Part shown: positions 1 to 64,000 of the stretch, piece after piece | Position numbering within the stretch: position 1 is the first letter of the stretch | How the letters are laid out: the number at the start of each line of letters is the position of its first letter | Assembly (NCBI GenBank): GCA_002118135.1 | Contig: BDIU01000217.1 | Coordinates: 62,001-126,000 of the forward strand | Direction: 5' to 3' | Origin: Trebouxia sp. TZW2008 | Lineage: Eukaryota > Chlorophyta > Trebouxiophyceae > Trebouxiales > Trebouxiaceae | Length of the DNA: 64,000 nt | The notes under the pieces: generated by a model | Seen by the model: the letters and a program-made list of their open reading frames with translations, nothing else | Told to the model about the DNA's origin: nothing | Database searches by the model: none | Translations under genes and position numbers: made by a program

Positions 1-352
1 AGCAGAGCTTTGCAACTCCGAGCTTCAAACGCTGCCTGGGAACCGCCTTGCACAGGGCCAAAAGGGCCGCGGCTTTTTTTTCTGCCCTCACTGCGGCTTT
101 GAAACTTTAAACCTGTCGAAGTATGCCATGCCTACATTACGGTCCGTGCGTCAGGTGGTCGATGTCAGCGATCAAAAGCCACGCTTTTCGCTGCGGGCTC
201 GCTGGACGACAATTCTTGGAGCCTTGCACACGCTGTGCTTGCCACTGGATGCTTGCAGCTGCGTTTGACCTAACCGGCTCGTAACATAGGTCAACTAGCG
301 GCTTTTGCGGCCTGCATCAGGCGGAGTCTCGACTAATCAGAATGTCGATGCT
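1..352. other. upstream region of the first GT49-like gene
   Basis: No coding exon can be supported here. The stretch runs up to the first in-frame ATG of the gene at 353 and presumably holds its promoter and 5' UTR, or the end of a gene outside the window. A run of T at about 74-81 is the only obvious low-complexity tract. No convincing TATA box was seen. Confidence 0.3.
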
Positions 353-3300
353 ATGTACCCTTCCTCCTTGGGCAGTAAGTGCAGAATAGCTGTTGCAGCT
401 TCGACGATCAACCAGCCTCGATCAAGCACCCCGGCCAGCTTCATAGCGTGTATGACTGACTCAGTCACGCAGATCATCGTACTCTTGGTGTTGCTTGCCA
501 CCTGCCAAGGTCGACGACATTTTCGCAGCGACAGCGGCATAAGCAGCCAGGGTGACAGTGGCCTGCCAAGCCAGCAAGCAGCATGCACTGATGCCATACC
601 AAAGCTGATTCATGAGCAGTCATGGCAGAGCTCAAGGCCCAGATGCAGCTCAGACATTACACTGGTCACACATCTATCATCAAGTTGGTAAGATTCCCAT
701 GCAAAGCACATTTAAGAATCAAGCTCTGGCCCCTGTTGAATGTCTTTGTGTTCCAGGCTGGTGTCTCTGAGTTCCCTGTGTGTGACATGGAAAGGATGGA
801 TTTCAGCTGCTGTTCATCTCCCTTCTGGTGCAGATCATGCTTCTGTGCTGTCAGATCTGAGTCAGTGGCATGCTGATCTTGATATCATTGGTAAGCTTCC
901 AATCAGGTTGGCATGCCTCGTATGTAGCTGATGCTAAGCAAAGTTGCGAAAACCTTATCTGAGCAGCAAATGAAGCAAGGCACAAAGCTGTATTGTTGTG
1001 CAGTGACAGTTCACAGCGTTCCTGTATGGTTTTGCAGATGCCTGTGCACTAGACTTGTCAGTCTTCTCCAGCAAAGATGACTTACAGAATGAAGCAGCTG
1101 TACATGAGCCTGCTAATAGCTTGCGCAACAGAGCACTGGCCATGGCCACAGCAGAGGTGAACTTTAGCAGCAGTGGTATTGCAGGCAGTGCTATACTGTC
1201 TCAAGTTGGGCTGCAATGATGCATGTGCCACCGTGGCCAATGCAGAAAAGATAGTCTGTGTCACAAACTCACACAAAATGTGCAGAAGTCTGATGCAAAT
1301 GCTGCGACTTTGCTGCTGACAGCAGTCTGCTTCAAAGCTTCTGTCTTTTCAGTCATGCGCAGGTGCGACAGTATTTGCATTGACAGCTGCCAAATACCTG
1401 GCAGTAGTTTTTGGAGCTTTGTGTCCCCAACACAACACGCCTCTCAAGCAGTCTTTTGCAATGCAGATGGTTTTGCCGATTGACGTGGACTTCTTGGTGA
1501 GTAATCATCTGAGTGAAACAGATAGTGTGCAGCAGTTGTTGAGGTGGGCAGCTGCTGGTGCAGCTTCTGTCATTCCAGCTTGGCAGATGACTGCTGATTC
1601 AGCTGCTAGTCAACAGCACGCCACAAAATTGGTGACAGGTACTGCCAGCAGGGTTTGCAATGCACAGAAGGCGCTCACTCATTGCAAAACCTGTTCTGAT
1701 GTAATGATGTGTGTTCAAAGAGGTACCAATGACATTGTTTTGCTTGCGTCTGCAGCTGAGAAACCATTTCACATTTGCTGTTGTCCCAAGTAAATTACAG
1801 CTCAACCCAAGGCAATGTGACTGCTGTTGTCATCTGTGTGCCTCCACCTGCGGTCAGCAACAAGACCAGGACTTGCGCAATATGTCAGCTCGTTGTTTGC
1901 CTGGCCACCGATGTGGGTCAGACAGTATGCATGCAAAATGACATACTGTGTTAGTCATGAACCCTCATGTGTTGCTCCCCAGCAGTCTCAGTGCAAAGCA
2001 GCTATGAAATGAATCAGACCTCATGCTGTGCAATCCTTCCGTCTGCATCAGTGACGTTGATCACCACTTTTCTGTGTTGTGCAAGCTTGTTCTCCGGATG
2101 GGGACGTTGCTTGGGCAGAAATCAAGGCCCAGCTGACAGAAAGCGTCCAAAGCAGTACTGTCACAGCATTTGTATGCTTCTGCCAAACTGCCTTCTCTGA
2201 ATGTTATTGTTGACTGAACAGGGCCAAAATCTCAGCTGACAGAAGCAGTCCGAAGGGGTGCTGTCACCTCATGGCAGAATGGCTCACAGTCCGCCAGCAG
2301 ACTAGACTACTGGCTGCATAGCGATGCATGGTATGGAGTTGATTTCACAGCAGTAAGTCTTGCTTCTTGTCTGAGCAGCTGTTTACCAGCAAATGAGATT
2401 ACTGGCGGCAAAGTGATGCCTGGTGAAAATCAATTCCACAGCAGTAAGTGCTGCTTCCTTTCTGTGAGTAGCTTGTGCAGTTTGAGCTATTGCTAGCCCA
2501 GGGTTTGCTGCACACCCAAACTGTCTTAAAATTGATACACTGGAAATCTCGTCTGCACCAACTGACAGCAAAGGATAGCTGTGCACCTCCAAAGTCTCAA
2601 GCATTTGCAGCCAGTTGATTATACTCGTCACAAGCACACGTATTGTCACATTGGCAGCATGTGACCTTTTGGTGCTGAAGATAGCATTGATGCCGTAAGC
2701 ATTACAACTTTTAAGCTATGCAACACTGGGCCATGTCAGCATCCTGCACTCCTTTGTTTGCCATGTGTGTGTGATGATGAGCTTTTGTATGCCCGGCCTA
2801 CCAACAATGCACTAGTGGCACTGCTTTCATTCTGAGGCACTCCATAGCCCACAAGTGTACCCGGGTACCGGTGGCCCATGATCAGATCTTCAGCACGCCT
2901 GCTTGAATGCTGCATAGCTTATTCCTGCCATGTCTGCCGTTGATCCAGATTCATATGCGTCTACAGGGATACGGACCCCTGGTGGTCGTGTCCAAGAAAG
3001 CGGTCCCCTGGTTTGATGAGCGCATACATGACGGTGGTCTAGGCAGGCAGATGCACCTGGAACATATGCATGCAAAGGGGCTGGGCTTTGTTGTGCACCC
3101 TGATGCCTTTGTAGTACAACAGCCTGCAGTCAGCAGTACCGGGCAACAGGATGCAGGACAGTTGCAGCAAGCTGCAGTCAGCAGCATTGTATATCATGAC
3201 CCAGGACAGCTGCCGCAAGCAGACTCAGACTTAGCTGGACGCACCAGTTCCAAGCAATGGCAGCAAGCAGATGTGAGTACTGACGCCAGCAGTTGACTGT

Positions 3301-4515: not shown

Positions 4516-6553
4516 AAAAAAAACCTAGGATATCAGCTTTGTGGGGAGTGCACAGGGAGTTATTCAACTCAGCTGGCCAACTCAGAGATTGGTCAAGGGC
4601 TGGCTACAGGGCTGGAAAGGCACCCATACCTCAAGCACCTGCCTGGTCTGACCTCATCTTGGACTGGCATGCAGCTGGTGATGGTGTGACTGATGACACA
4701 CAGGTACAGGCAGATTTGCCAATGTGATCTATCTCATGGCTGTTGACCTTGCAGTCCTGCTTGTCTGTTTGCTTGTCTGCTCTGACTGGCAGCTTGAGCT
4801 GCTTGTGTATGTTGGAAAGATGTGCACCGCAGTCAAAGAGTAAAGCTGCTGCAAAGCATGCTGCTGCAGATTGTAAATTACTTTGCATGTTTGCCACCAC
4901 TTTGGAAGCCTGACTTTTACACAGCATGGTTTCACTTGTGTTTCCTGTTGTCATCAACAGGAGCTTTGCACATGTGGCATGAGGGCGTGATTGCATGCCT
5001 TTCACCATGTGCTGCATTGTACAAGCAAACACTGCGTTTGCTTATGGACATTCAGCAAACTGGACAAGTACAATCAGCAGCTGAGTGGACACAGGACACT
5101 GACAACAGACACACTGTATGACATGGTTGACATGCAGAACAAACACTGAGATATTTATCTGCAGGCTCTGAAACGCGCCATTGAGCTCAGCCCTGAGGGA
5201 AGTGTATTGTACTTGCCAGAAGGTAAATACAGAATCACAGAAATGATCAACATCACCAAATCAGTCATCCTGCGGGGCGCTGGCCCATCTCAGAGCATCC
5301 TGTACTTCCCCTTCTCCCTTACTGAAGTCTATGGCAACACCCCAGATCCTGTCACAGGCTACTCACAGTGGGCATTTCGGCCAGGGTTCATCAATTTCCT
5401 AGGGATTGACCCGATTGAACCAAGGACCCTCTTGGCACATGTGGTCAGGGGAGCTTTTAAAGGGGATAAAGAACTCAGCCATGGGGGTTGGGTGAAGCCA
5501 GGGTTGCGTCCTAGGGTGGGAGACTGGGTCAGGCTTGTGCAGAGTGACCTTGGCACAGGCGACAGCCCAGCATCACAGCAAACCCTACCTGGTCAAGCGT
5601 TGGTGCAATCCCATAGCCTCATTGAGCACCTGTATGGCGGCTGGCAAGTCATGTCACCTGATGCTCCTCCCCACGTGTATGCTGGCGAGCTACAAGGCAC
5701 CCAGTATGCTGCACAACTGATGGCTAAGCTCAGCAGTGTTAGTGAGGACACCATCAGCCTGGACCGTGAGCTTCCCTTTGATATACATACTCATTGGCAC
5801 CCTGAGATACATACAGTGCTGGCTAGCTTGAGAGAGGCTGGTGTTGAGGATTTGACAATTGACTTTGCTGAGGCGCAGTATGGCGGTCACTTCAAGGAAG
5901 TTGGGTACAATGCCTTGTACATGAGTGCAGCGCATGATTGCTGGGTAAGGAATGTACACATCATCAATGCTGACTATGCAGTCGGGATGAACGGAACTCA
6001 CTTTTGCACGCTGGACAATCTCAGCATCTATGACAGCTTTGACCGTGGTGGCGGGCATCATGGCATTGATGTCAGCTATGGTGCAGACAATCTGATCAAA
6101 GACTTTTCCATCTACAAGCAGTTTCTGCATGACATTAGCATAGAGTGGTACACCCATGGGAATGTCTTTGTTAACGGTTCTGGTTTGGACCTGAATCTAG
6201 ATCACCATAGAGGTGCCCCTTTTGGCAATCTGTTTACTAATCTTGACTTTGGCAAGGGAACCAGGCCTTTTGCAAGCAGTGGTGCTCATGGTAGGGGAGC
6301 CCATTCAGGCGCTTACAATACATTTTGGAACATGCTGAGCAGAGATTGTTGGGCATACCCCTTTGAGGATTTTGGACATGAACTGACTTTTGCTGGTGCA
6401 TTGGCTGATACACCATGCGCAGATCCTGAAATGCAGGCGCTCCAGGGTCTGATGTTTCCATTCAGCTTGTATGATGCTATGAAAACCAAGATTGGTCATC
6501 AAACAACTGTGTCAAGGCATGCAAGGCACCTGACAAGCAGCTTCAAGTCATAG
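4516..6553 (+). CDS. pectate-lyase-superfamily / right-handed beta-helix protein (N-terminus incomplete)
   Basis: Member of the Pectate_lyase_3 / GH55-like beta-helix group, acting on or binding polysaccharide; the substrate is unknown. Exons seen: 4516-4703 and 5165-6553 (intron 4704-5164, phase 0), giving about 525 codons. Exon 1 encodes the entry motif WHAAGDGVTDDTQ, followed after splicing by ALKRAIE and VLYLPEGKYRI, the typical first helical rungs. Repeated short strand patterns (for example NVHIINADYAVGMNG and NTFWNMLSRDCW) support the parallel beta-helix. The first coding exon, probably a secretion signal, lies upstream and was not resolved; the acceptor at 4515 is in phase 1. It ends with TAG at 6551-6553. 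The gene sits between two GT49-like glycosyltransferases on the same strand, suggesting a glycan or cell-wall role, which is inference only. Confidence 0.85.
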
Positions 6554-10200: not shown

Positions 10201-11535
10201 TTTACAGTGAGCGGTACCCTGTGGTGAGCATTCAGGACTTATAGCCCAGGGCTTCTTATACTAGGGGCATCTGTAGAGTACTACACCCATGCTTTTGTAC
10301 ACAAAGAGGGTGCTTTCTGCCTGGGCATAGTACCCAAGAATTCCCTCTGTGGCTGGCCACAGGTGAGCTCTACATTGCCAAATGTTCAACGGCAAGCAAG
10401 AACAGGCATCATAAGCACAGCGGCAAAAGAGCACGCATTCTGGCATAGAGCTAGGTGTGTGTGGCACAAGTCCTGCCTTGAAAGGCCAGTTTGTCTGCAT
10501 CAAGTTGTGCATAGGCTCATCACACTTGAGGTATGTTGGTATTGTGTTACTAGCAGGACTGTCAGAGTGTGCCCAGCCGACTACGTATGTACATGTGCCT
10601 AAGAGTCCGTTGCCTTCGCATGACAAGCGCTTCATTGACTATCATAAAGAGACCATAAAGCGGTGCACATCCAGACCATGCACCATGGGTGTGCAGCTTT
10701 TCATTCAAATTGATCACAGGGCTTTTGAGCCCAATGTGTTAGTGCTCAGGAGCCTTGTGAACTGGTATGACAAATGCTTCACAGGGTACTTTGAAAATGA
10801 CGTGGCGCACTCAGACCATGCACCACATGGTCTCAGCTTTTGCCAACTCAACAATCCTGATGCAGGAGTTGGAATCGTGTATGATCATGTGAATGCAGGG
10901 TTTTGAGCCGTATGTGATTGTGTCCAAGAGCCTGGTCCCTTGGTATGATGAACGCTTCACTGGCTACCTTGAAGACAAGGTGGTGCATATACAGACCATG
11001 CATCACATGGGCTTCCAGTTTGCAGTACATCCAACTGCCTTTGTGGCCCATTACCCGCACCCTGACTCCCAAGACCAGGCCCTTGTCAAGTCTACAAGAC
11101 TCATGGACGAGGTAACAGACTGAGGCTTTGCTCACTACTTGGCCCCTCACCAAGTCAACTAGTTTGATGCATGAGGTCAATCAATAGCAGGCAGGCTTAG
11201 CTTTGGTGGTGCATTACCCGCATCCTGACTCCCAAGACCAAGCCCTCGTGAAGTCAGCAAGACTCATGGACGAGGTGAGACAACATTGACTCACTGAGCT
11301 GAAATTTGAAGAATTTTTCCAACAGGTTGTCCTTTACCAGCTGCTGCATGCACAGCAGCAGTTCCAGCCTGCTGCATACAGATACAAAGAGATTTTTCTT
11401 GAAGCTGCTGCTGCATGGATGCTTCTTAGCTGCATACCCTTTTGGCTGCACTGTACTTTGCTGCCTGCACTTTCAAGGGATAGGGGACGAAGCACATGCA
11501 GAATGGCTGCTGCAGTTCGACTGCTGCCAACCTAA
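7300..11535 (+). CDS. LARGE-type glycosyltransferase, GT49-like (paralogue 2)
   Basis: Second Golgi-type GT49-like glycosyltransferase. Exons: 7300-7637, 8147-8295, 8870-8988, 9443-9614, 9934-10076, 10899-11111, 11326-11535; phases close to 447 aa. Residues about 22-48 form a hydrophobic signal-anchor. The DxD is LLLLDVDFM (D208-D210). Downstream are the family blocks AAGHNATDFPRWL and FEPYVIVSKSLVPWYDER, and a His-containing segment FVAHYPHPDS. Exon 3 carries a Pro/His-rich insertion before HPLNALRNKA. The last exon starts well (VVLYQLLHAQQQFQPAAY, matching paralogue 1) but then becomes compositionally odd. A further splice to downstream exons near 11.6-12.2 kb is possible, so the C-terminus is the weak point. 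Several exons have degenerate duplicates in the neighbouring introns. Confidence 0.82.
8823..8886 (+). repeat. duplicated acceptor region of GT49-like gene 2 exon 3
   Basis: CATGCAGGCAAATGTCACCTG occurs twice (about 8823-8844 and 8863-8883). The second copy provides the acceptor used for exon 3 (8870). The first continues differently, so it is an upstream decoy acceptor. Confidence 0.75.
9530..9785 (+). repeat. tandem partial duplicate of GT49-like gene 2 exon 4
   Basis: The 3' half of exon 4 plus its donor (about 9530-9624) is repeated at about 9685-9780, including GAAGCCATCATCAGAGCATG and the GTGAGCACA donor. The downstream copy carries a TAG in the exon frame and has no acceptor of its own, so it is taken as a ghost exon. 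Confidence 0.8.
10150..10225 (+). repeat. degenerate copy of the 3' end of GT49-like gene 2 exon 5
   Basis: Around 10182-10222 a short reading MATDELYSERYPVV resembles WLASDELFDVQYNMV of exon 5 (9934-10076). It is isolated by stops and lacks a good frame connection. Confidence 0.45.
10570..11285 (+). repeat. four copies of GT49-like gene 2 exon 6 (one intact)
   Basis: The intact exon is 10899-11111. Upstream are two decayed copies: about 10570-10716 (stops and frameshifts; shares GTGCACATCCAGACCATGCA with the intact exon) and about 10717-10866 (reading FEPNVLVLRSLVNWYDKCF, then diverging). Downstream, 11200-11280 repeats the exon end, including CCCGCATCCTGACTCCCAAG and a GTGAG donor. Only the central copy has both splice sites and an open frame in phase. 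Confidence 0.85.
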
Positions 11536-11925
11536 TTTGCGCCTTGGCTCTTTAAATGTTCCTTTTGCTGCACTGCGGTGTCACGACACTGTGATTCTGG
11601 TGCCTGCAGATTCAGGCCATGGGAGATGGAGCACGTGCAGAAATGGCTGCTGGAGTGTATCTGCCACCCACCAGATTTGCACCCTGTCATGCGCCGTACA
11701 AACTTCCTGCCACTACAGGCTTTGTGCAAGGATGCACCACCTCTGGCACACTTGACCAGTCAGGTGCAGCGAGTCAGCAATTTGTCATGCATGACACAAT
11801 AAGTTTTCTGAACTGCAATGTGCTGTGCTGTTTTGCTGTAAAAGCAATTGTCAACTTTCTGTCAACACAGGCTTTGTGCAAAGCTGCACCACTTTTGGCA
11901 CACATGACCAATCAGGTAAGTACAG
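11464..11925 (+). repeat. paired degenerate duplicates 3' of GT49-like gene 2
   Basis: About 11470-11545 and 11605-11690 are similar (GGGACGAAGCACATGCAGAAT versus GGAGATGGAGCACGTGCAGAA). A second pair, about 11719-11765 and 11868-11915, shares GGCTTTGTGCAA and GGCACAC..TGACCA.TCAGGT. They look like additional exons of the upstream gene or their ghosts. A further candidate exon is 12109-12171 (reading TYQLRGCMRRDDAGSHWEK, followed by GTAGTC). Confidence 0.5.
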
Positions 11926-13471: not shown

Positions 13472-14678
13472 ATGGTTTTTGGCTGGGGTACGTGCTATGA
13501 TCGCTGCTGATGGCTTGTATGCAGGCGCGGCATCGGTCGCCGATGGGACGCAGCAATGTGTGATGCTGCCATCTATGTTTTGGAGATGCTGTGCAGGTGG
13601 TGACAATCACGAGGAGGCATACAATGCCGTATACGACGACAACAACCCACCCTACGATGATGACAACAAGGCAAAGTTCAGCCATGAGGCTGTTGGAGGT
13701 AAGACATTTTGCAATACGCTTTGGGCTAGCATTATCGATCGTGTTCTTTTGTGAATGAGCAGCTTTTGACAAGAAATCGACACCTCGATCGATGTGCAGG
13801 AGCCGCAGCGTTCTTCGCCATGCGTGAGTACGAGAAGCATCAGTCTGCCAACGGACAGCCTCCTAGCCACCAGTTTGCAAAGGAGCTGATGGCTGGCATT
13901 GCCGGCGCCGAGGTACAGGGTCTTTTCCGATGCATCAGCCTTTGACACAGTATCAAAGAATTGCAGTCTAGCTTGCGTGTGCACCAGTTAAGCATAGCAT
14001 TCTCTGTGCCTCCATTTGTCTGTTTGGCACATCTGTGTTGCAAGGATGTGCTGCTAGCCACATTTGGAAGTGCTTGCTCAGAACCACCCACTTACAGTCT
14101 GTCAGCTTCAGCAACTTCCATGACCTATTTCGCATGTTGTACCTCCCCTGATGTGGTTGCATGCAAGTGAGGTGCATTACACCAAACAGGTCATGCAGGC
14201 TGCTGGGCATCAAGCAAATGGCCTCAACCAGCCAGTGCACCTATTCTTCACAAGCCATGGTCATGTCAGCCAATACATATTGCCAAGTGCTGCACAAGCT
14301 CTGATGGGTGTTTCCATGGAGCATTGGTATGGGTGTTTCCATGAAGCATTGGTATGGGTGTTGGGTTTGCATGCTGCTCAGCATAGCATTGATGATCATC
14401 ATCATCATTCCCATCCTCTTTTTGGCACAGGCATGCACATGTGCACATCATGCTTGCTGCTCCGTCTGCAGGTTGACAGGCTGGCTGAGACCAAGGGTAT
14501 GGACTACCTTGACAAGGAGAAGGCAAAGCGCCAAGCCAAGCAGCAGGCAGAGCAGCTGTATGACCAGAACTACGGCAACCAGGACCTGGGCGGTGGTGGC
14601 GGTGGCAACTGGGATGGCGTCAGGGACAACTACCAGCAGCAGTATGGTGACAGCTACCAGCACGGCGGCTACTACTAG
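13472..14678 (+). CDS. CipC/DUF3759-like protein 1
   Basis: Homologue of the CipC-like antibiotic-response/DUF3759 family, small soluble proteins best known from fungi and also present in some bacteria; the molecular function is not established. Exons: 13472-13487, 13597-13698, 13800-13912, 14472-14678, all phases consistent, 145 aa. Hallmarks in order: an acidic Tyr/Asn-rich N-terminus, AKFSHEAVGG, AAFFAMREYEKHQ, NGQPPSHQFAKELMAGIAGAE, and an acidic-basic helix LAETKGMDYLDKEKAKR. It ends in a short Gly/Tyr/Gln-rich tail. The first exon is only 16 nt (MVFGW plus one base) but is matched by an equivalent first exon in the neighbouring paralogue. A TGTAA poly(A)-type signal of green algae lies at 14715-14719. 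Confidence 0.88.
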
Positions 14679-15608: not shown

Positions 15609-17303
15609 ATGGTGTTCGGCTTCGGCGGCGATGATGGTACGTCTCTGAGAGTCCCTGCGTTGGCGCATCCACAAGACATACTCGTCTCTCACGCACCTGT
15701 AGTTGATAGCGTCGCTTCTATGCAGACGACAATGAGCGACACTACGACAATGTGTACAACAAGCCGCACGAGGGTAGCTTGACACATGAAGCTCTCGGAG
15801 GTACGCTTTTAAGCGGACCATCAGATCTGATGGCATCGATTTTTGATGCTCTCCCCCGACAGTTGACTTGAGCCCTTTGTCGCTTAGGTGGTGCTGCCTT
15901 CTTTGCCATGCGGGAGTACGAGAAGCACCAAGCCGCAAACGGGCATCCACCAAGCCACGCTTTCGCCAAGGAGCTGCTGGCTGGGATTGCTGCAGCAGAG
16001 GTATCTGACGCCCAGCCGACTGCCTGCTGCTGCAGCATGAAGCATTGTCCACACCATTATGCCATGCAGAACGCATGCAGCAAGAATACACAGCGCGTGC
16101 GTCGTGTCCATACGCACAAATGGTCGCTGGTTAACTGACATACTGAGCTGTGTATCTCGCCATATGGTTCATCTGTAATGCATGATCATGAACCAATGCA
16201 TGAGTAGCTCAATCACAAGAGCAACAAGCAAACAGTCAAGCAGTGAAGAAGACACACCCATCAAAATGCAGTGTAATACAGGTTGAACATGCAAATCAAC
16301 ATGGAATGTCGTGCTTGCAGGTTGACAAGCTGGTTGAGACCAAGGGGCTAGACTACATGGACAGGGAGAAGGCCAAGAGACATGCAAAGCAACAGGCCGA
16401 GCAGATGTATGACCAGCAATACGGTGGCCGTGACATTCAGGGCGGTGGCGGCGGCAACTGGGGCAACCTCGGCAACCAGTATGGTGTCGGAGGTGGAGGT
16501 ATTGGCATCATTTGTTTTTCATCATGCGTTTTGTGGAAAGAAAGAAGGAAGGTTTTCATGGTCTGCCTATCCAACGAGGCTGATTGCATGTGCCATGTAT
16601 TGGCAATGACTACATGTCTTTCATGTTCAGGCAACTTGTACAAAGTGGCCAATGTATGGCTGCTGCACTGGCTGAATTGCTCAACTTGTTGCTTTTGGAA
16701 ATGAGTGCGCGCCTGAGACTGTTGCATGCTGACTTTGCCACTTCCATCAGTGTATCTTCATTTGTACTGTTGCGACACTTAACCTTGCCCAGACTGTTTA
16801 GGCAGACTGAGACAAATCTAAGACGTCGGTGCAGCTGGAGGAAGGCACTTTCATTTGGCACAATGGCGCTGTCAAGTCTTGAGAGTTGTCACAGCAAGGA
16901 ACTTGCCTAGAAATGAGCCCAATAGATTGTGCGCAGAACATGTTTGCAGAACATACCTTTCATGGGCACATCCTGCCATGTTGCATCACGCCCACATGAC
17001 GTCTCGAAATCGCATGCAAACAATCTGTCAACACTCTTCTGCTGGTATGCTGCAGGTGGGTACGGCGGTGGTGGCGGATATGGTGGTGGCGGTGGTGGCT
17101 ATGACCAAGGCGGCTACGGTGGCGGTGGCGGAGGCGGAGGCTATGGCCAGCAAGGTGGTTATGGTGGTCAACAGGGTGGTTACGGTGGTCAGCAAGGTGG
17201 TTACGGTGGCGGCGGTGGGTATGGTGGGGGCCAAGAGGGCTATGGGGGTGGACCCCCTCCTGAGGGCCACCACCACCATCACCATGGCGGTGGAGGGTTC
17301 TAA
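15609..17303 (+). CDS. CipC/DUF3759-like protein 2 with Gly-rich His-tract tail
   Basis: Paralogue of the gene at 13472. Exons: 15609-15636, 15726-15800, 15888-16000, 16321-16498, 17056-17303; phases 1,1,0,1; 213 aa. Exon 3 is 113 nt in both genes. The core motifs are the same: THEALGGGAAFFAMREYEKH, NGHPPSHAFAKELLAGIAAAE, and KLVETKGLDYMDREKAKRH. An extra fifth exon (about 82 residues) encodes a Gly/Tyr/Gln-rich low-complexity tail built from GGYGGGGGYGG and GQQGGYGG units, ending PPPEGHHHHHHGGGGF. Such tails are typical of cell-wall, RNA-binding or phase-separating glycine-rich proteins; which applies is unknown. The long intron before exon 5 (557 nt) could allow a short isoform ending after exon 4. 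Confidence 0.87.
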
Positions 17304-27306: not shown

Positions 27307-27613
27307 GGCTAGCTTGACCCCAAGCACCGCTCAAAAGGCCTTCAGTTGCAAACAGTCTTCAGTCATAAGGGTTGAAAGCAACAGCACCATACAGGCATCA
27401 AACATCAGCCGAATACCTTGTTATGATCGCGATCAAACTACTCACGTGTTGTGAGCCACACCACGCGGCCTACGAGGGACCTCAAGACAGATATTCGTTA
27501 ATTTCGAGCCAGTTGATGCTCAGGGTGCTCTAAACCCGCGCGCTGTGCTGTCAAATCAGTCGGAAGTACAGGGAGCCTGAAGCATGCGACAGCTTTTGAG
27601 AGTCCTCATATCG

Positions 27614-48436: not shown

Positions 48437-51400
48437 TCAACTCTGGTCTCCATCAGAGTCAGTACCATCATTGTCACCGTCATCATCTGTGGCTTCAGAA
48501 TCCTCTGCCCGGTCACTACCATTGTCATAGTTGTGCCAGTCCCTTTGTTTGTTATCAACTGTATTGTTCTCATCATATGCATGTGGGCTGTCCTTGCCTA
48601 AGTAAGGGTCATGACTCACAGCATCATGACTCACAGGATCATGTCCTACATTGTCAGCATCATACCCACGCTGTGTTGGTAGCTGCTGATGCTTTCTGTC
48701 ATGAGGCAAAGCATGCTGCTTTGCATCAGTATCGTCACCCCGCTGTGTTTGCTGCTGAGCAGCAGATAAGGCGCCTGGATAAGCCTTTTCTGTGGGGGCG
48801 CTGTGATGCATGTGCGAAGCTATTTCGTGATGATCCCCATGAGCAGGTGAGCGTGGGTCTCTGTTAGGGTATTGGTGCTGGTAGGATCCCTGGAAGGGCC
48901 CCTTTGGCGCTGGGGATGCCCTTTGGTGCACAGTGCCCTGCGCGTGCTCATCTTCTTCTTGAAGGGCTGGATCAACTGACTGCTTCTGGCGTAGTCTTTG
49001 CGTCGCATCAGCGCTGCCAGAGTCTCTTTTCCTCTTCCTCTCCCTGCAATGCAAAGTTATATGTTCATTGAACACAATGGCTTGGCCAGCAGAGCAGGAG
49101 ACTAGAAACTCGCATCTTGGGGTGAATGTTTTCTGGGCACCGGCCATGCAAAGGGATGCTCATGGTGCAAGTTGTCAGCACAGTCAGTTGTGACGCAGAG
49201 AGCATCCTGCAAAGCAGCAGTGCATGGCATGAAGCAGCAACAGCGCAGCGCAGCTAGGAGCTTGAGCGTCCAAGTCTTGAGACGCTATGCATGCTGTGCA
49301 GTCAGCCACACACCTGGCCATACAGCAGGACTTTGCTCCACAATTTGGTCACAAGTGCACAGCCATGTACATGTATGAAGCACAGGCTCAGCATATGGTG
49401 ATGCCGCATTCCTTTCTCTTCACATGCAAAGCATTGATCGCTGCACTTGCCTGTTGTCCTTTGCCATGTGTTCTAGTGCCATTGCATGGCGCTGTGTACG
49501 CCCGGGGCTAGTTGGTGCAGCCCTGCCCTGGTGCCCATGACCTTCATTGTAGACATTGTTGCTGTCCCTGTGGCCAGCACTTGCAGGTCTGCCCCTTGCC
49601 TGGTCAGGCTCAGGAGCAGGGCTACTTGAAGGCGCTCTGCTCCAGGCCTGATCTGGTTCCGCCCTAGGGCTGTTCGGTGCAGCCCTGCCCCAGGGCTGGT
49701 CCCTGTCAGCCCTGGGGCTGTTTGGTGCACTCCTGCCATGGGGCTGGTCCCTATCAGCCCTAGGGCTATTCGGCGCCGCCCTGATCCAGGGCTTGCTTGA
49801 GTCATGCTTAGGGCTGACTGATGGCGGAGGTGTCCGACTTCTCTGCAGCTGGTTGAAGTGCGCCAAGGCAGGAGAGCTGTCCTCCACCATTTCCTGCTTC
49901 TTTGTTGGCGCCTTTTTTTGAATGTCCTGCATGCGCCCAATTTCCCGCTGCTGCTGCTGATGATGCTGCTGCAGCTGTGCACGCTGTGTCTCTGTGCGCT
50001 GCTGCTGCTGAAGCTGCTTCAGCAGCTTGTCCCCTAAGTGCTGCCTGATCTCATCCTGACCCTGCACAGAAAGCACAGTCATATCCTCGCAAAAATAGTG
50101 TATACAAGCTGACAGCGTTTTGAAAACTTTGCTCTGTAAGTGCTGCATGACTGCGTCAAGGCCCTCTCAAAGCAGCCAATGACAATTTGTCAGCAGATTA
50201 GCAGCTTTCAATAGTGGAAACTGCAGCTTCAAAAGATGTTCCAAGTACTGCTTCATGGCATACTGACCCTGACAAGACAGCACAACCACAATTTGGTGGG
50301 AAGATATCACCCTTAACATAGCAACAGCAGTCCATGCAGGACAAATTGGACAAGATACTGTAGCTCATCTATGATTGAGAGTTTCCGGCCGGTTGAGGAC
50401 CTGTCTTTTTGACATGTTGAACATGCAGTTTGCAACGCATTTCGTTCAATCTATGCATTCTAAATATGTGCTAGGCAGGCTCAGCAGGCCCAGCTAGGTA
50501 CGTACTGGAGGAGCCAACTGTCTCCAACCAGTTCATTCCTATGCTATCCTAAACCATTTGTACTGAGCATGAAGGGAGGTGAGGTTCTTGTATATGGTTG
50601 TCTGCCAAATGTCTCTGGGCTTGCCCCTGGCCTTTGTACCTGAGAACTGCCCAAACATACACTGCTCATTCTTTCATTCATTATGAATGTAGGCTAGGCA
50701 GGCTCAGCAGGCCCAACCATGTACGTACAGAAGCAATCAAATGTCTCCAGCCAGTTCGATCATGAGCTAACCTAAACCAATTATATTGTATTGCTCTGCT
50801 CATGCGACTTTGACATTAACTTGCCTGTTGAGGACCTCTTGCTGAGGGGCTAGCAGCATCTTGACCATCCCCAAACACCCCCTGATGAGTCCCTACCCCG
50901 CCCCTGCTGGGGTTCCTGGAGGGCTGTGCCAAACTGCCCTTGCCCTCATGCTGCCCTCTGTGCTTGCTCGTGGACAGTAACTCATCACCAGTGACTGATG
51001 GCATGGCTGACATGTCATTCAGATTGTGACTGTTGAAACTGCCAAGGCTGCTGTTTTTGGCAAAGTTGCTCCATGATAGCAAAGACGGCAGAGCACTGGC
51101 CTGCAACATGAACAGAACCATTGTTGCAACAATAAAAGCGCTATCGACATAGTGCTGAGTTCATGACCATGACTGACAGATTCCTCTACACAACAAGAAT
51201 AACATGATGGGTGTCATGAAGTTTCAAAAGTGTGACTGTTGAAGCTGCCTAGGCTGCTGTTCTTGTCAAAGTTGAGATGGCAATGCGCCGGCCTGCAGCA
51301 CCACACAGCTGATCAAAACGAAGCACACGGTGGGAAAATCAACTTCTTGCAACACTACAGCACTTGTGGCAATGATTGCACAACTTTGCCTCGGCTAGGC

Positions 51401-54400
51401 AAAACGTGTTGCTGCGCCACCGGAATACGACAATAGCATGTGTCTGTGAAGTAGTTGTCAAATGCAAGTAATGCTTTCTGACAAATCATACACATGCAAC
51501 ATCATGCACAATGGTTAGGCAGGTTGCCACCAGATGCTTCTGTCTGCATTTGATACCAGACATAAAACACAGCAAAGCACTGTATGCTTTTCAGCAATGC
51601 CCACATTTTGCTGGATGACAGTGTCACTGTCGACAGATCCCCTGGCCCCCATTTGCTCCATCCAAATGTGCAGCAAGTGACGCAGAAAGTTCTGATCCTT
51701 GTCTTTGTGCGCTTTGACTTACATTGTGCTGGTTGGCAATGTCACTGTTGACTGATCCCATGCCCCCCAACTGTTCCATCCAGCTAGGGCTGGGGCCATT
51801 CCAAGAGCCCTCTGGCACCCCATGGAAGTCCTTCTTGCCTGACAAGCAGATATCGTTTCAGCGGCATCATCACCACAGCATGGGCAGAACATTGACATGT
51901 TGTCCCATTGAATGCTTGATGATCATAACAAGCAGATCTACAAGGGACATGAACAGACATCAGACTGCATTTTTGGCAAGCACTAGTGGCTCATCAAGAG
52001 GTATGGGTTGCGTAGTCATATGCAACATAGCCTGTACAGACTTGGCGGGAAGATGCAGCTTGCCTGAATCCTGGAAGGGCAGACTGGTCAAACCCTCAAA
52101 GGGGTTTGGCGGAATGGAGCGTGAGCCAGTTCCAGTTGCCGTATGCTCGCTGCCCTGCCCTTCAGGAATCTTGCTGGCCTCAAAAATGGCCTTGGAGGGC
52201 AGTTTGGGGCCTGCCCTGCCCTCCTGATTGCCTGCTAGCTGTTGAGCAAACATCTGGCTCAGCAGTGCAGCGCTCTCCTCCTGAAAGCAGAAAAAGACTG
52301 TCAAAGGCAAAAATGACCACAACATGGTGTTTGCATTGCCTACACAAGACACAAAGCCGGCCCGCTCTCCTTTTGATGTATTGACTGGAAGACAATATGG
52401 AGCCTGTCCTGCGCTTCTCAACACAGTGTGTGGGTTGCGCCGTGCGTATGCCTGGTTGCTGATTGATGCTTGAACAATAAACTCACTCAGCACTGAAGCA
52501 TCTGCGGGGTGGGAGTCCCTACAGGTTCCACGACGTACTGCAGTTCTCAAATAGATCAGCTGAATTTGCATGCAAAAGCACTGACCTGGGCACTCATGTG
52601 ATGACCAGCCCTGCCAGGGGGGGCCTGCTGAGTGGGCCAGGGGGGTGGGGAGCCCCCAAAGGACAACCCTTCCCGCCTGCTGCCACCGCTGCCCTTGCGT
52701 CCAAAGCCTGTCAGCTCTGCATTGGGCATTTGGAGTTCAACATGTTCTGTTCTTGTGACGTTGTAGACAGCAGCGTGAACCGAGACATACGCTCAGAAGC
52801 TGCTTGATAAAGCTGGACTGAAAAATGTCGCGCATTGATGCTATGTGTTTCACTTTATGTGCTGCCAGACGTCAGGGCAAGCTTAGGACCGCATTGACCT
52901 CAGTTTTAAGCCCAGGTGTGTATTACTGAATCACACTATACTGTGGAGCAGTTTCCACACCGACCATACATGCATGGACACATCGGTGACAGCACAGTGA
53001 CTCAGCATTGTTGCTTTCATGGCTCTGTTGATCAAGCCAAGGCCAAAGCGCTGCCACCATACACTAATCTGGGTGAAGCATGTGGACAAGCAGCCAGGAG
53101 CATGCAGGCAAGCGGGCAGGCAAACTGGCATAGGCTGATGGCAGGCAGACAGGCAGACAAGCAGACAGACACACACAGACACACACATACAAGCGGACGG
53201 ATAGAGGAGAAGCTCTCACCGCTAGCAAGACCATTGCTGTGTGCATCTGCCCGCCCATAGGCTTCCTCCTGCAGCACAGACAGACTCTATCAGCACTCAC
53301 AATGCCTGATGCTGCTAGAGTAACCTCTCTTTGTAACGACTGCTTTGGTCACCAAGAAATTTGTCCTTACATCAAATTGTCCTTACTCAGAGGGCCCACT
53401 GCAGTCAGAATGCAGTCCTTCGTTCCCAGATGCAATGTCCTTACATTGAGAATGTCCTTATATCGAGTGTCCTTATAACGAGACATTACTGTATGCTGAG
53501 GCAGTACTCATGAAAAGCTGGGTGCACTCACAGCAGCAAAAGAAGAACTTTGCTTCAGATGTTTATGCAAAACTTCAACATGACAGTGCCAGCCATTACT
53601 TGCAGACAATATTCTGTCAAAGCTCAATTGTGCAGTCAAGCCTGTGTATGAAATGGAACCCTTCACCTGACTGCATACTTGCACAGGAGTCAGAGCTCCC
53701 AAGAACAGTTAGGGCCAGGCCTGGGCCATCACTGATTTGACCCATGAGTCTGCACTGGAATTGAAGCCCCCTTTCCCCCTGACGATACAGGAGTGACAGC
53801 TTGGCATCAGGCTTTGACAACACAATGATCGTTGAAACTACAGTGAACGAGGTCTGAGCTTTCTCTGCTTACCTGCACAGGAGTCAAGGCGCCCTTGATG
53901 ACGCTGGACTGGCTGTACTGAATGATCTGGTTCAGGGTCTCAAAGTGTTGGTTGCCCAGAGTGAAGATCATCCAACCTGGGTGAAAGTCTTCCCACCACA
54001 GCCGCATTGCTTGCTCGCAACTGGCCTGAACCTGTAACAGCACAACAGAAACATCAGCACAGTTTGCTTTCATGACGCTGGACTGGCTGTACTGAATGAT
54101 CTGGTTCAGGGTCTCAAAGTGTTGGTTGCCCAGGGTGAAGATCCTCCATCCTGGATGGAAGTCCTCCCACCAAGTCGCATTGCTTGCTCGCAACTGGCCT
54201 GAACCTGTAACAGCACAACAGAAACATCAGCACAGTTTGCATTCATGACGCTGGACTGGCTGTACTGAATGATCTGGTTCAGGGTCTCAAAGTGTTGGTT
54301 GCCCAAGGTGAAGATCCTCCATCCTGGATGGAAGTCCTCCTACCAAGTCGCATTGCTTGCTCACAACTGGCCTGAACCTGTCAAAACACAACAGACTCAT

Positions 54401-56565
54401 GTACACAGCTTGCTTTGACCAATGATTGCCATGACTAAATTCTATGATGTGGTTCAGTGTCTCAAAGTGCCCAGAGTGAATATCAGGCAGCCTGCGTGGA
54501 AATCCTGCACAACCGCATTGCTTGCTCACAACTGGCCTGCACCTGCAACAATACGACAGACACATTTGCGCAATCTGCCTTAAACAGAAATTGCCATGAC
54601 TGACGAAAATTTCTGGTTTGTCTCAAAGTGCTGGTTGCCCTGGGTGAAGACCAGGTGATCCAGCCTGAATGACAGTCGTGCCACCGCAGCCGCATCGCCT
54701 GCTGGCCTGAACCTGCATCAGCATGATTCAAGTGTTGCTGTAGCCCAACATAGTTGGCCTGTAATTTTGAAGCAATGCAATCTGTTGACATGGCTTAGAT
54801 CCACAGCTTGATTCAAGTAGTGTTGATCACCCACATTCTAAATGGAAGTCTCCCCGCCACAAATGCATTGCCTGCTCACGGCCGGCCTGCATCTACAGCA
54901 GTCAGATCCCTGCTAACGCAACAGCTGAAATCCATGCTCAATTGCTTACAGCAGTAGTGGCTAATTGCAGCCTGGATGAAAGTTGTGAATGATCATTACT
55001 TATGTTGCAAAATGATCTCACCTGACCCCTTTGGGCGGGAAGTTGATGCTCTATGAGCAATGACTCCATGTGAAAACCAAACTCAAATCGTTTCAGGCTG
55101 CTGTGCCAACAAACTGTCCCTGATGTAAGTTGCTGGCATGCAACCCATGACCGTTGACTGATCATTAGTCCTGATGCATATTGATCTCACCTGATCCCTT
55201 TGGGCGGAAAGTTGATGCGCCATGGCAATACTTCCATGCAGTCCACCCCTTGAAATTATGTTTTGCTTTCCTTTGTATGAACTGAGTGTTGATTTACTCT
55301 GCAATCATTCAGTGATGATAGCAAATGTTGAGTCATGACACTGACAAGGGGTCAAGGATAAACGCACCTGATCTCTTTGGGCGGGAAGTTGATGCTCCAT
55401 GGGCACAACCTCCATAAAGTCCACCCCTTCATGCCGCCGGTTCTGAAGCAGAGCAACGGGAGCATCCAATTTGAGGTCACCCAAGCTACACTGGTACAAC
55501 AGTCCTACACTCATGTTCTTGATGTACCACGCTCGCATCCTGTTGTCCACCTGCGACATCATGAATCAAGTGGCTTGAACAACAGTGACGCAACAGGTGT
55601 GTGATTTCACACTTGGTCCAGTACGTGAACCAGGCGAGCAGCTGGATGCCAAAGCAGCTGGATGTGTGCAACAGGTGTCTTACCTTATTTGAACACGAGT
55701 CCTTTGTAGCTATACTATGCTACAAGATACACACACATTGAATGTCTTGCATGTGCATTGTGCCGCCATGTGAAGTGCATGAGGCATCTGTAAATCCTCT
55801 CTGATCCCTGGTACCTCGTATACCTGGACAGCAGTCTTGGCATGCTCACAAGCAGTGTCCCACTTCTTCTTACTTGGCTTCAGCAGTAGATGCTCTTTTT
55901 GATATATGTCATCACTGTGTGCAGTGCATTATGCAGCTGCAAACCCTGACGAAACCCTGGAGTGACTCCAGAGCAACCCATGCCTGGACAAGCAGTCTTG
56001 GCGTGCTCACAGGCAGCGTGCCACTTCTCTTTGCTCAGCTTCAGCAGCTGCCTCACTTTCCTGTTGCATGTGGTCAACATGTGCAGTGCACTGTGCAGCT
56101 GCAAACCATGATTGAACCCTAAAGCAACTATACAGCAACCCGTACCTGGACAGCAGTCTTGGCATGCTCACAGGCAGCGTCCCACTTCTCCTTGCTCAGC
56201 TTCAGTAGCTGCTTCAGCTTCTGCTGCATGTGACCATCAGCTTCACAGATCTTGGCGACCCTCTGAAACTCCCGCACTTTGGTCACCCTGCATAAGCATC
56301 CAAGCAGTATTTGTCTGCTGTCAAAGAGAGCCAACAGTGCATGTAACCTTCGACCTTACAAATCTTGGCGACCCTCTGAAACTCCCAGCATTTAGTCACC
56401 CTGCCAGACCAGGCATACACTGGTAAACAAAAGATAAATTGCAGAACTGAATAACGAAGGGCTGCAACATGAGATCGTCAAACAAGATGCAGCAGCAGCA
56501 ACAGAAGCAGCAAAACAAGCAGCAGAATAAGAATCAGAAGACAGGATACCTACAAAACAGCGAAG

Positions 56566-56605
<40 letters not shown>

Positions 56606-59600
56606 CAGCAAGACGCACAGGCTTTGCCTCTTTCTGAAAGACAAATCAGAAGAAGAAAATGAGAAGGATGAACACGATGAGAAGAGCAAGATAGTGGAGA
56701 AGAAAAGATACCTCCAGAGCTCCCTTGGCAGCTTCAGATCCAGGTTCATCTCATCAGCGCTAGCCTTGATCTCGTTCAGCTTCTTAACAGTTTCCTTGCC
56801 AATGTGGTTCAGCTTGCTGATCGGATCATCCAGGGAGGGAATCTCCTGCTTCTTCAGATTCTTGGTGCGCTTAGTCACCACCACAAACTCCTCTGACACA
56901 GCTGGCCTGATATTTAAGCGGGAGCCGCTGTTGCTGACTGCTCGCACTACCATTCTGAAAGGCGGCCGCTTGGTTCCCGCCAAAACTGACTCGCTACTTT
57001 CTGTGACTTTCACCTCCCTGCAGAAGGAAAGCTGACAATCATGCAGGATGCCTTTGCAGCGTTGTGGTTGTTTGAAGCAGCAAAGATGTAGACAACAGCT
57101 AGAGGTTTTTCACAGTAATGGTCAATGCATCAAGCCAAGCCTGATTACATCTGGGCTATTGCACAAGCCAAGCTACTTAGCAGTAGTTTCAAGCTCACAA
57201 CAATTATGCGTCCCAGAGACAATCCAGTACTCCTGTCAGGTCCTCCTGGACTTCACTACGCCCCATGAGAGGCAGCGAAAAGGACAGCATTTTCTTAGCT
57301 TCTCCCTCAAAAAGACAGACACAGCCAAAATCCACACAGCAGCAACCATCACGAGGCTTACTTGAGTAATGCAACTGTTCCATTGGTCTGGAAGTTGAGA
57401 GTGACTTGGGGCGACTAAACACTAATGGCCGACCCCCCTGCCACCATGAGGGGTTGCCCCACAATAAATAATACAACAATCATGCACTGCTCATTTGACA
57501 TCGGGATTTGAAGCAGACTCACTTGCGTGACACAAATCCCTCGTTGGTCTGGAACTTGAAAGTAACTTGGGGGTGATTCTACACTGTTTGCCACCCACAA
57601 TAAGCGACAAACACAATCATGTAGCAATTGTTCAATGCAAAGCAAGCTTCCTTTAATGCAACAGACGCCCAGATGTTGCAAGACACAACAGACAGCAAGG
57701 AGTGTAGCAGCCGTCAACATGCTTACTTGAGTGATACAAATGTCTCATCGGTCTGAGACCTGAGGGTGACTTGGGGTGCTCCACCTTCTTGGTCACACAC
57801 ATCATGCAACACATCATGGCTTTCTGTCAATCAAGAATGCCTGGTGACAACTTACTTGAGTGACACAAAAGTCTCATTGGTCTGGAACTTGAGGGTGACT
57901 TGGGGTCACTCAACGATGTTGGCCACCACCGCTGCCACCACGAGGGGTTGCACCACAACAATCCATGCAGCAACCATGCAATGATCATTCAAGCATTTAC
58001 AGTAAACTCACTTTAGGGATACAAATGTCTCGTTGTTCTGGAATTTGAGGGTAACCTGGGGGGACTCAACACTGTTGGCCACCCCCCCTGCCACCATGAG
58101 GGGCTCCCCCTTCTGGTTCTTCAGCACCTCACACTCATCCAGGATTTCCATTCTTTGCTCGCCAACCTCCCGACATCTACTGTTGAACTTGTTGCCGTCC
58201 AGTATGCACAACTGCACAAAGTACAGAATGAAGTGAGTCATATTTTGTGCCGCAGACAACAATCAGACTACCAGATCTTGTCCTGATGCAGGCTCTCTAT
58301 GCTTTGCTCCCCAACAGGAGTGTGTCAACAGGAGCTGTTGAGCTGTTGAAGATGCTGCTGTCCAATGAGGACGCGCACACACTCAGACAGTTGTCACAAA
58401 CAGAATGTCTTGTTTCATCAGCCTTCTAACACAAGCACACGACAAGACTACAGCACTTCACACTCTTGCAGAATACCCATGTTTTGCTCTCTGACAGCAG
58501 CGGCTGTTCAACTTGTTGCCCTACAGTATGCAACAAACAGGGTGTTCTCCATTCTGGGGAAAGGCAAAGCTTGCCTTCATTTTCATGCTGAACAAGTCAT
58601 CAGCAATGCATCTAATGGTAGCCCGATGATACAGTTTCAAATCAGGTTTCCCCCAGCATCTGGCCAGCGTTTGCAGAAAAGGCCAAAAAGGGGCCACAAG
58701 GGCAAAAAACAAAGAAGGAAAAGAATAGGAAAGCTCACCTCCAATTTCATGCCAGACAGATCATCAGTGATGCGCTCTCCAGTGACACCGTCAACCAATT
58801 CAACTTGGATCTCTCCTTCACACTTGGCCAAGAGCTTGTCACCAACCCAGTATTTGTGCGCAAAGTTGCCGGTGCAGCGCTTGTTGGGGTTGTGCTTGCA
58901 TAGCACGCACTGCAGCCGATTGCACCCATGATTCCTGCAATCATCCAAGGATGATGGAGTCAGCACTAGTGAAGACAACAGGAAACATATTTTGAAAGCC
59001 ATCAACCAATTCTGCTTGAAAGTCTCCCTCGCACTTGGCCAAAAAGCTTGGTCCCCACCCAGTTCTTGTGGGCAAAGTTACCAGTGCAGCGTTTTTTGGG
59101 GTGCTTGCACCAAACACACTGCAGCCTGTTGCACCCATGATTCCTGCAATCATCACAAGATGACCATGGTGAAAGACGGTGATTCTTGCAGGCACCAAGG
59201 GAAGAAGACAGCACATCGTCCCTGTTCAGAAACTCACAGGACCACCACCGATGCTTGTGCGCAAATTTGCCAGTGCAGCGCCTGTTGGGATTGTGCTTGC
59301 ACAGTACACACTGCAGCCTGTTGCGCCCATGGTTCCTGCAAACATCAAAAGATGGTCATGGTGAAAGGCAGTGTTTTCTGCAGGCATTGAGGGAAGAAGA
59401 CAGCACTTGGTCCCTGTCAAGAAACTCAAGGGACCACCACCGATGCTTGTGCACAAATTTGCCTGTGCAGCGCTTGTTGGGATTGTGCTTGCATAGCACA
59501 CACTGCAGCCTGTCGCACTTGTGACTCCTGCAAACATCAAGGCGGATACATAGCAAGAGCAGATGCGAAGTATACACAGCATTGTCACAACAGCATGCAC

Positions 59601-61647: not shown

Positions 61648-64000
61648 GACTTTGATCTGGTGTCTAACAAGCTGGCCCGTGTGCTACTACCTCGCTGCAA
61701 GCGACCCTACACTTGACCCTCGCACAGCAGGGATCCGCCTTGCTGCGGCTTCCGTAATCAGCAAGACAGACACACGGGCCATGGCCGAGCTTCTGAGCTG
61801 AGCCACCCGCTGCACATTTCCGCGCTGCAGCGTCAGTTTCGTTGCTGCTTGTCTTACACCTGCGCTTTGAGTACCCCTCAGCTGAAATTTAGTGTACTTT
61901 ACGCATACACAGTCGCAATCAGCAACAATGAGTCATGAGTCGACTGCCGTTATCTTCAGCCTTGCAGTTCCGCCTTTCTGACTAACATTGGCGTCGTGGC
62001 GCTCTGTCGGGTCAGGTGCGCTCAGTGTCACCGCAGCTGCACTGCGAGTGACAGCCTGCATCAACATGCCAGTTTCATCTCACCCAGGCAGTGGGCTGCC
62101 CCAGTGCACTGCCTTCCGCAATTGCAGCGCTGCAAGCATGTACGACGCTCATAAATGCCAGTCCAATTGGCATTCAAAGTCTGCACCTGATACCTACCGG
62201 TAGGTAGCATCACACTACAGTCTGTACCACAGTGTTACCCATCCTGAATGCTACAGCTGCAAGTGCACTTGGGCCTGCAGTACAAAAGCCTGGCTAGGAG
62301 TTGCACCATGATCAGCCAAAGCTGCTGCATAGCATTGCGCATCTGTTGACTCTAAAGTTCAGGCGCGCATTTTGCAAGCAGCAGCCACATGCATTATACA
62401 TGTGCAGTGACGCTGGCCTTCATCAAGCTATTTGTATAGCATTACTGGTAGTTTCTGATCATGACCAGTCGGACAGGATTCAAGAGAGACACTCAGCGTC
62501 TGCAGCGCAGCAAATGCACTCATGCAGTCTCATCCAAAGTACATAAGACTATAGATTATACAAGAGTTCATGCAGTACATGGCTGCACAAAGCCATGCAG
62601 CGAGTAAAGTCAAAGCCTGTCCCCACAATGCCCTCGTGGCCGGCAGCTTACATGTATACAGCACAGCTTCAGTCAAAGCTGATACATAGCAGCAGCCTCA
62701 GAAGCAAGGACTGTAATGACTACACTCTGTGCGGCATTGTGTGGCGTATGCATCAGCTTAGGTGTGAGTCTTGTTGCAGATACTCTCATGCCCAAGTGAC
62801 CTTTGGGTCTCAAAGGCTGTCTCCAAGTCCTGGAAGCTGTCAGGCAAGCCCTCAGAAGTTCCACATGGCAGCCCTCAAGAAGGCTGCAATTTTGTCAAGT
62901 TGGGCAGACTAGCAAAAGACACATTTGGGTCAAGCTCCTGTCAACTTCTATCAGGCAGCATGATCTGGTTTGCAACACCATAATTAGGCCCAATGACTGC
63001 TGACTGTCGGGCTGCTCTCCAGGAAATCCTTCATTGGCTTGACTACACTATCAGTCTGAGGGCAGCATGATCCAGAATTGCACAAGTTAGTGCAAAGTAA
63101 CATGACGTAAGCATCATGCATTTGATGTCAGAAGGATAAGCAAGCGTGCCATCAGAGGCTGCAGGTATGCAAAGACAAGTTCCTTGACCTGGCATTGCAG
63201 CTTGTTGCTCTTGCACGCCTCTGATGTCCTGTCTTGTAAGAGGCTTTGCAGAGTCTGCAACAAACTCGCGAACAATGTGATGCAGGAAAGGCCACTGGGT
63301 AGACCTAGCGTGCAAGACTTGCCTATCACGATGGCAGTGGCCACAAATAGCTGGCAAGCTTCACAAATCACCTGCAGACCCAGCATGCACATGACATGCT
63401 TTGCCGTGACATTACTGCATCAACTTTGATGTCAATTGCTGATGTGCATTGCCGTGCAGCAAGGCAAAACATTGTATTGTTTAACAACTAGGCATCCTGC
63501 CTTGTGCTGAATACAACAGGTGATAGAGACGCTTTTTGACGGAAACCAAGTACCTCAAGGCATAGCAGCAATTGGTATGATTGCTTACACTGGCCATGAG
63601 CTTGTGGTACACAAGGCAGGATCCATCAAATATTATGTGAATATCTGCAGCTGCTATGGCTTTATTCGCTCAACTGATTTTGGATGCTGTGGCAGCTGTG
63701 ATTATATCGCACATTGCCAGTGCACTGAAGGACAATTTCCAACATATCAACCCACTTGCATCCAGCGTGAAGTCTGGATCACCTGTTCTGACTTGAGCAA
63801 CAGGGGAGCAATTTTGGCAAGCTGTTTGCATAAGTAGGCTAGTCAGGAGGTGGCTGCTGCAATGGTGCAACAACTTTGATATGGTGCCACACAGACTGTC
63901 TAGATGCGTCGCAAGTAGTTAAGGTGAGCAGGTACTCAGCTCAAACGTATGGGAAGAGCTGCATGTGCTGGGATTAAAGATGACTGGTCACTTTTGCTAG
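61648..64000. other. upstream region of the CBP60-like gene and unresolved right end
   Basis: The left part is the presumed promoter of the minus-strand gene. Further right, plus-strand segments at 62780-62983 (open in all three frames) and a good-looking small exon at 63522-63575 suggest a plus-strand gene running out of the window. I cannot assemble or name it. Confidence 0.3.
63522..63575 (+). CDS. candidate internal exon of an unidentified gene
   Basis: The context is ACAACAG, then a 54-nt open frame reading VIETLFDGNQVPQGIAAI, then a GTATGA donor. Compact, polar/hydrophobic-balanced sequence and good splice signals make it exon-like. No family could be assigned and neighbouring exons were not found. 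Confidence 0.3.

Follow-up and report, generated by a model that had tools for sequence, protein, structure and literature searches.

Introns are usually argued to lengthen through transposons, and mutually exclusive exons are a known form of exon duplication; exon duplication and internal gene duplication were reportedly treated by Gao and Lynch in 2009. Short tandem duplication through the repair of staggered breaks or paired nicks is said to have been described by Vaughn and Bennetzen in 2014 and by Schiml in 2016. In the sections of PMC8355091 that bear on this subject, small direct tandem duplications in plants and humans are thought to come from nearby nicks in opposite strands, and the corresponding part of PMC4974935 describes a duplication in a potato RdRp gene that crosses an intron-exon boundary and created a new intron (the Rogers model of intron gain). 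The present analysis concerns ghost exons, that is, diverged partial copies of exon sequence lying next to the exon concerned, in 64,000 nucleotides of Trebouxia sp. TZW2008 (hereafter the window; positions 62,001-126,000 of contig BDIU01000217.1 in assembly GCA_002118135.1, which comprises 68.5 Mb in 527 contigs) and in a sample of the same genome. This copying is spread over the genome sample and is not limited to the six window genes (two GT49-like genes, CAX, LRR, Mpv17 and CBP60-like) in which a preliminary description of the window had placed it. The ghosts probably arose by short direct tandem duplication, with the exon copy maintained by selection and the spare, junction-straddling piece decaying in the intron.

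Self-alignment of the window, with low-complexity pairs dropped from the count, identified 52 direct and 3 inverted pairs within 1 kb, which cover 17.0% of its length; the direct pairs are distributed among the GT49 (5), CAX (9), LRR (3), Mpv17 (5) and CBP60-like (11) regions and the rest of the window (19). The blind sample consisted of bases 20001-30000 of every 25th contig (19 stretches, two of them short). When these stretches and six tiles of the window were compared (25 pieces), 235 direct and 5 inverted pairs were found within 1 kb versus none in one dinucleotide shuffle of each piece, and 50 kb of E. coli, a bacterial and not a eukaryotic control, yielded a single pair. A stricter cut with spacing of 60-1500 bp retained 243 direct and 4 inverted pairs, and coverage per stretch ranged from 0.6 to 50%. 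In the exact k-mer spectrum, an excess of direct matches peaks broadly at about 90-230 bp and is small past 700 bp, and the inverted signal is small save at offsets below 10. After merging, 122 events were counted in 248,163 bp of the genome sample, with a median period of 160 bp (interquartile range 134-196); their spans make up 23.4% of this sequence, and the copies are 60-90% identical in 114 of the 122. Thus, the ghosts themselves and their excess over shuffled sequence bear out the preliminary description. As to its six-gene scope, repeats do occur in the named regions but are also found beyond them, and some arrays lie inside introns clear of mapped exons (L044, L045 and L023); the genome seems to contain exon-anchored ghosts side by side with duplications of purely noncoding sequence.

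In the CAX gene (minus strand), seven exons were modelled by spliced alignment to six homologs, whose alignments place the internal boundaries within their reach identically, the exceptions being P0025, in which exon 4 is split, P0002, which begins in exon 2, and P0007, with additional small pieces upstream; the nearest CAX protein is an Astpho2 gene model, presumably from Asterochloris. Every one of the 12 local pairs of this gene (E up to 0.01) involves an exon. The modelled part of exon 1 (23022-23159) is accompanied by two ghosts of its donor end, at 22778-22819 (86% over 42 bp, offset 239) and 22856-22917 (74% over 62 bp, offset 159), and by an upstream ghost of its 5' part at 23234-23274 (79% over 43 bp, offset 126). 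The donor end of exon 2 (22429-22645) has a ghost at 22255-22294 (85% over 40 bp, offset 168), and that of exon 4 (20979-21125) has three, at 20793-20870 (80%, offset 178), 20671-20737 (78%, offset 300) and, more weakly, 20464-20583 (65%, offset 456). Exon 5 (19476-19691) shows both forms, with a donor-end ghost at 19257-19327 (79%, offset 217) and an upstream acceptor-end ghost at 19818-19867 (80%, offset 149). Exon 3 (21621-21825) belongs to a tandem array with an offset of 156 (21415-22256; pairs 21415-21988/21571-22176 and 21737-21918/22083-22256), in which one copy fits the homologs, one ghost is open for 49 codons and the other is more decayed; the earlier proposal that one copy per set retains frame, acceptor and donor was examined in CAX alone. 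For exons 6 (18773-18867) and 7 (18348-18472, end approximate), the local-pair search of the gene found no ghosts.

Additional loci were analyzed for the geometry and decay of such copies. HSP70 and CCT loci were picked by family search for their near-complete exon maps, and kinase loci, whose maps are incomplete, were picked because several exon rows were present. The HSP70 and kinase sets are not fully blind since family tables had shown duplicated profile stretches on C150, C165, C73 and C130 beforehand, and those of L036 and L039 were known before these two loci were chosen. The first gene models of L036 and L039 were partly wrong, as remodelling of L039 with E. coli DnaK as the query removed an apparent intron; the uniform-duplication simulations, the splice-dinucleotide tally and the intron-gain scan rest on these first models, and the corrected ones were used for the geometry, divergence and homolog-side counts. 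From the geometry and homolog counts, L022, L031 and L046 were omitted (ambiguous or incomplete exon maps), and fragment 588-725 of L025 was treated as a ghost. As a separate observation, some kinase rows (for example, C229, C261 and C154) are matches within very long open frames of 460-790 codons, unlike most kinase rows.

Among 74 direct pairs in the CAX, HSP70, CCT and kinase loci, 43 join an exonic to a non-exonic segment, 28 lie off mapped exons, and 3 with both members exonic were dropped. In all 43, representing 28 distinct exon ends in 12 loci, copies of exon tails are located downstream and copies of exon heads upstream, and none of the ghosts holds a whole exon. The aligned block extends to the exon end in 39 of the 43 pairs; in a first version with 41 partly non-independent pairs, this was the case for 37, whereas random placement predicts 28.4 (as extreme in 7 of 20000 simulations). 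Both features are those that tandem duplication across a junction must produce. In 22 pairs from splice-resolved genes, exon-ghost columns contain 18.5% mismatches (81.5% match) and 3.7% gap columns, compared with 23.6% mismatches (76.4% match) and 17.8% gap columns where noncoding sequence is aligned with noncoding sequence in the same alignments. Exon-ghost mismatches at codon positions 1, 2 and 3 amount to 16.4, 15.3 and 24.0%, respectively; the near equality of the first two fits an unconstrained ghost, and the surplus at the third fits silent change in the exon itself. At 204 amino acid differences, the homologs support the exon residue in 159 cases and the ghost residue in 8, with 37 undecided. 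The same coding signal is seen without annotation: the period-3 power of mismatches in 87 ungapped pairs from the 19 blind stretches is 114.6 versus a null mean of 87.1 (0.3% of 300 simulations), where 115.2 would be expected if every pair had the exon-ghost bias, and in the window it is 39.8 versus 24.4 (1%). An open-frame test of repeat blocks (107 of 111 versus 105.7 expected) is without power.

These data are best accommodated if the genome accumulated many short direct tandem duplications of narrow unit length. Where such a unit straddled an exon-intron junction, the copy contiguous with the remaining exon sequence would stay in use and the other would be stranded in the intron, exon tails downstream and exon heads upstream. 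The used copy would remain under purifying selection and the spare would drift neutrally, so that often only its once-exonic part would still be recognisable, and introns would lengthen and pick up single decoy splice sites. The preliminary description had likewise proposed local tandem duplication with drift of the spares, and the observed direct orientation, unit size of about 160 bp, geometry, asymmetric decay and codon periodicity all agree with it. The duplications presumably originated through the repair of staggered breaks or paired nicks, and the ghosts are likely to be spliced out.

The proposed lengthening of introns follows from this anatomy: each event adds about one unit, and in the six genes with models, local direct repeats account for between 0 and 36% of the intron sequence (L036 and L039 in their first versions). 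Decaying ghost exons could record how introns grow. The spare copies had been described as frameshifted, truncated or lacking a splice signal; most do not lack one, as 13 of 17 retained the splice dinucleotide they inherited (one of the four losses is unalignable, and the model behind two L039 rows has since been revised). This retention of GT or AG makes decoy splice sites plausible. Intron gain by AG-GT duplication, also suggested previously, finds no such backing: a scan of six gene models (two of them first versions) for introns that begin like the following exon head and end like the preceding exon tail returned intron 9 of L039 as the only candidate, and it vanished once the gene was remodelled with the E. 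coli DnaK query, the gene model having been wrong. In the same locus, an HSP70 ghost exon whose frame is intact (L039:2020-2122) led the spliced aligner to invent an intron, so that ghosts may mislead gene prediction here. In another HSP70 gene (L036, C150:63970-64534), one exon start is present in three tandem copies, all profile-significant and about 170 bp apart. The ghost-skipping HSP70 model agrees at 594 of 594 positions with P0123, a 656-aa protein from a 2250-base contig that, judging from this size, may be RNA-derived. The HSP70 protein joined from L037, on another contig of the same assembly, is 97% identical to proteins of Trebouxia sp. C0005, C0006 and C0010 and 100% identical to a protein of another contig, which places the genome in Trebouxia or very near it, among green algae of the lichen-photobiont type.

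Several results weigh against tandem duplication followed by neutral decay. The homolog-side count is biased because the best-fitting copy was chosen as the exon, and in the gene loci alone period-3 power is not significant (44.9 versus 36.6; 9.7% of simulations). Residual homology of the spacers (z>2) is present in 51% of 114 pairs, leaving about half without it, and among 18 pairs with at least 90% identity, 9 lack it, 7 of these with z<1, which is a difficulty since a young tandem unit should still align; some blocks of 90-98% identity with unrelated spacers have no explanation under the tandem model. The pairs without spacer homology are also the more coding-periodic, both at 85% identity or more (21 pairs, 35.2 versus 21.2) and below (24 pairs, 39.5 versus 24.0), with a printed share of 0.00 of 400 null simulations reaching either value. 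The signal is weaker in pairs with spacer homology at 85% or more (22 pairs, 30.4 versus 21.9; 2%) and absent from those below (30 pairs, 31.6 versus 29.6; 35%). Furthermore, some copies seem too well preserved at the protein level for dead DNA. All 7 mismatches fall in one codon phase in an ungapped block (45389-45462) between part of an Mpv17 exon (45560-45646, minus strand) and its copy (45389-45475, same strand), as do 9 of 10 in a thioredoxin-like pair (L004 2887/3045). Together with the missing spacer homology, this suggests that some copies stayed translated for a while or were inserted without their flank.

The same two pairs would be expected if the ghosts were functional, either as alternative or mutually exclusive exons or as long-lived exons that died lately, and the pairs without spacer homology exceed the period-3 value of dead ghosts (reached in 2% of simulations for pairs at 85% identity or more and in 7% for those below). 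We nevertheless consider this quite unlikely because homologs overwhelmingly favour the exon, codon positions 1 and 2 differ equally and every scored ghost is partial; by our estimate, two extreme cases among some 150 pairs are not far from expectation.

High-identity blocks with unrelated spacers would also be compatible with a copying process that is directed to exons or splice junctions instead of being uniform; nucleosomes positioned on exons, nicks coupled to transcription or templated insertion of local 50-130 bp pieces could provide such a mechanism. Exons are touched by all 7 CAX events versus a fraction of 0.39 in an earlier uniform simulation, albeit in a gene flagged beforehand by the preliminary description, and by 13 of 16 HSP70 and CCT events (p 0.028-0.040 under one clustering rule, one L046 event unclassed) versus 0.55-0.57 expected. 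The latter expectation comes from simulation of uniform duplication on the first gene models. Since pairs that include a conserved exon remain recognisable for longer, the share of visible events involving an exon reaches 55-57% there without any targeting. Once L036 and L039 are removed, 6 of 9 events touch an exon (p 0.39), and in the kinase loci 21 of 42 pairs do so versus 21.7 by rotation on incomplete exon maps. The intronic arrays away from mapped exons speak against targeting as well, and the extension of blocks to the exon end is what tandem geometry demands. The exon excess was accordingly rejected as proof of targeting after the visibility simulations, the event recount and the kinase set, and targeting appears unlikely; a preference of the duplications for splice junctions is not established.

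A further difficulty for tandem duplication as a continuing process is that near-identical copies are too rare for steady birth: no event among the 122 reaches 95% identity by its highest-scoring pair, and a hand count gives 7 of 243 stringent pairs with at least 95% over at least 50 bp. Constant birth would yield no fewer young copies than old ones, so that either births have slowed or the assembler merged identical copies. The first possibility can be extended to a probable past burst in this algal lineage in which nucleosome-sized units were duplicated at exon-intron boundaries, such that introns would largely descend from repeated rounds of copies of their own exons, of which a part was still translated before dying. 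We regard this version as doubtful; if true, it would imply that decoy splice sites and replacement exons are continually supplied. The second touches on the view that the repeats are an artefact or collapse of the assembly, which could account for the scarcity of near-identical copies but is very improbable given the 60-90% identity of most events and the conservation of an Mpv17 ghost. The tail of an Mpv17 exon, ending in CAG before the GT of its donor (44915-44979, minus strand; Pfam Mpv17_PMP22, 47.9 bits on joined exons), has a 92% identical ghost at 44794-44858 on the same strand. P0254 and P0281, open reading frames from two further contigs, continue past the donor of this exon and, by eye, follow the window intron and the ghost without gaps, the ghost being at the same place and followed for 8 codons in P0254 and about 20 in P0281; the database relatives of Mpv17 are fragments or read-through frames of this kind. 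The duplication would thus predate the split from the sources of these contigs.

The remaining repeats of the window include local direct repeats in the region of the second GT49-like gene (10584-11917, plus strand) and in the CBP60-like region (57317-58110), a repeat with offset 115 near the LRR-like gene (40102-40445, minus strand), and an array of coding-looking units with offsets of about 190-210 (58788-59547, minus strand), all detected by self-alignment. A tandem array of 173-174 bp with coding-looking frames occupies 53895-55429; its best pair (95.4% over 325 bp) is the longest seen at 95% or more and is shorter than the highest-scoring pair of the array. The many similar-sized repeats within introns, and the presence of a dispersed repeat in the window (34450/50407), might suggest dispersed mobile elements or introner-like elements. 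We consider such an origin extremely improbable because the copies match the adjacent exon, in direct orientation and within 1 kb, and because the single array queried genome-wide, that at 53895-55429, matched with a 498-bp query only two places, both within itself. The dispersed repeat itself (34450-34674 and 50407-50788, about 16 kb apart, 72-82% identical) is perhaps a mobile element fragment.

Gene duplication was rejected as a source, as the preliminary description had also held: the GT49-like and DUF3759-like pairs look like ordinary tandem genes with offsets of 7.9 and 1.8 kb, unlike the 160 bp repeats. The latter is likely a tandem gene pair with segments 80% identical over 147 bp (14467-14613 and 16316-16462, plus strand), of which the first matches DUF3759. 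A Pfam search with 20 long window frames gave 3 matches. The gene labels assigned earlier stand for CAX (spliced alignment), Mpv17 and GT49 (36.7 bits on joined pieces; cut-off of 27 for both) but not for LRR, which is below its cut-off (19.4 versus 27), or the CBP60-like gene, which has no Pfam hit. Finally, a single 467-codon open frame at 5150-6553 (plus strand) with a pectate-lyase-like match (PF12708) stands in intron-rich surroundings and is possibly a recent or foreign gene.

By the words searched, ghost-exon copying is unreported in the main texts of the Trebouxia and Asterochloris genome papers PMC12712428, PMC11523091 and PMC6652019; the word 'tandem' is absent from all three main texts, and 'intron' and 'exon' from that of PMC11523091. 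Of these papers, PMC11523091 provides six PacBio assemblies of Trebouxia and PMC12712428 that of A48. With exon and internal gene duplication, the ghosts share the duplication of exon sequence within a gene, but the scored copies here are partial, mostly straddle one junction and are apparently dead. As far as the relevant parts of the two sources go, the nearest mechanisms appear to be those of PMC4974935 and PMC8355091. The potato RdRp case is alike in that a duplication crosses an intron-exon boundary; there a new intron resulted, whereas here existing introns are lengthened, with no new intron in the six models scanned. Compared with the break-repair duplications of PMC8355091, the duplications described here are old, occupy roughly one-fifth of the DNA sampled, keep to a narrow range of unit lengths near 160 bp and have breakpoints too diverged to read, but they share with them the small size, direct orientation and tandem arrangement.

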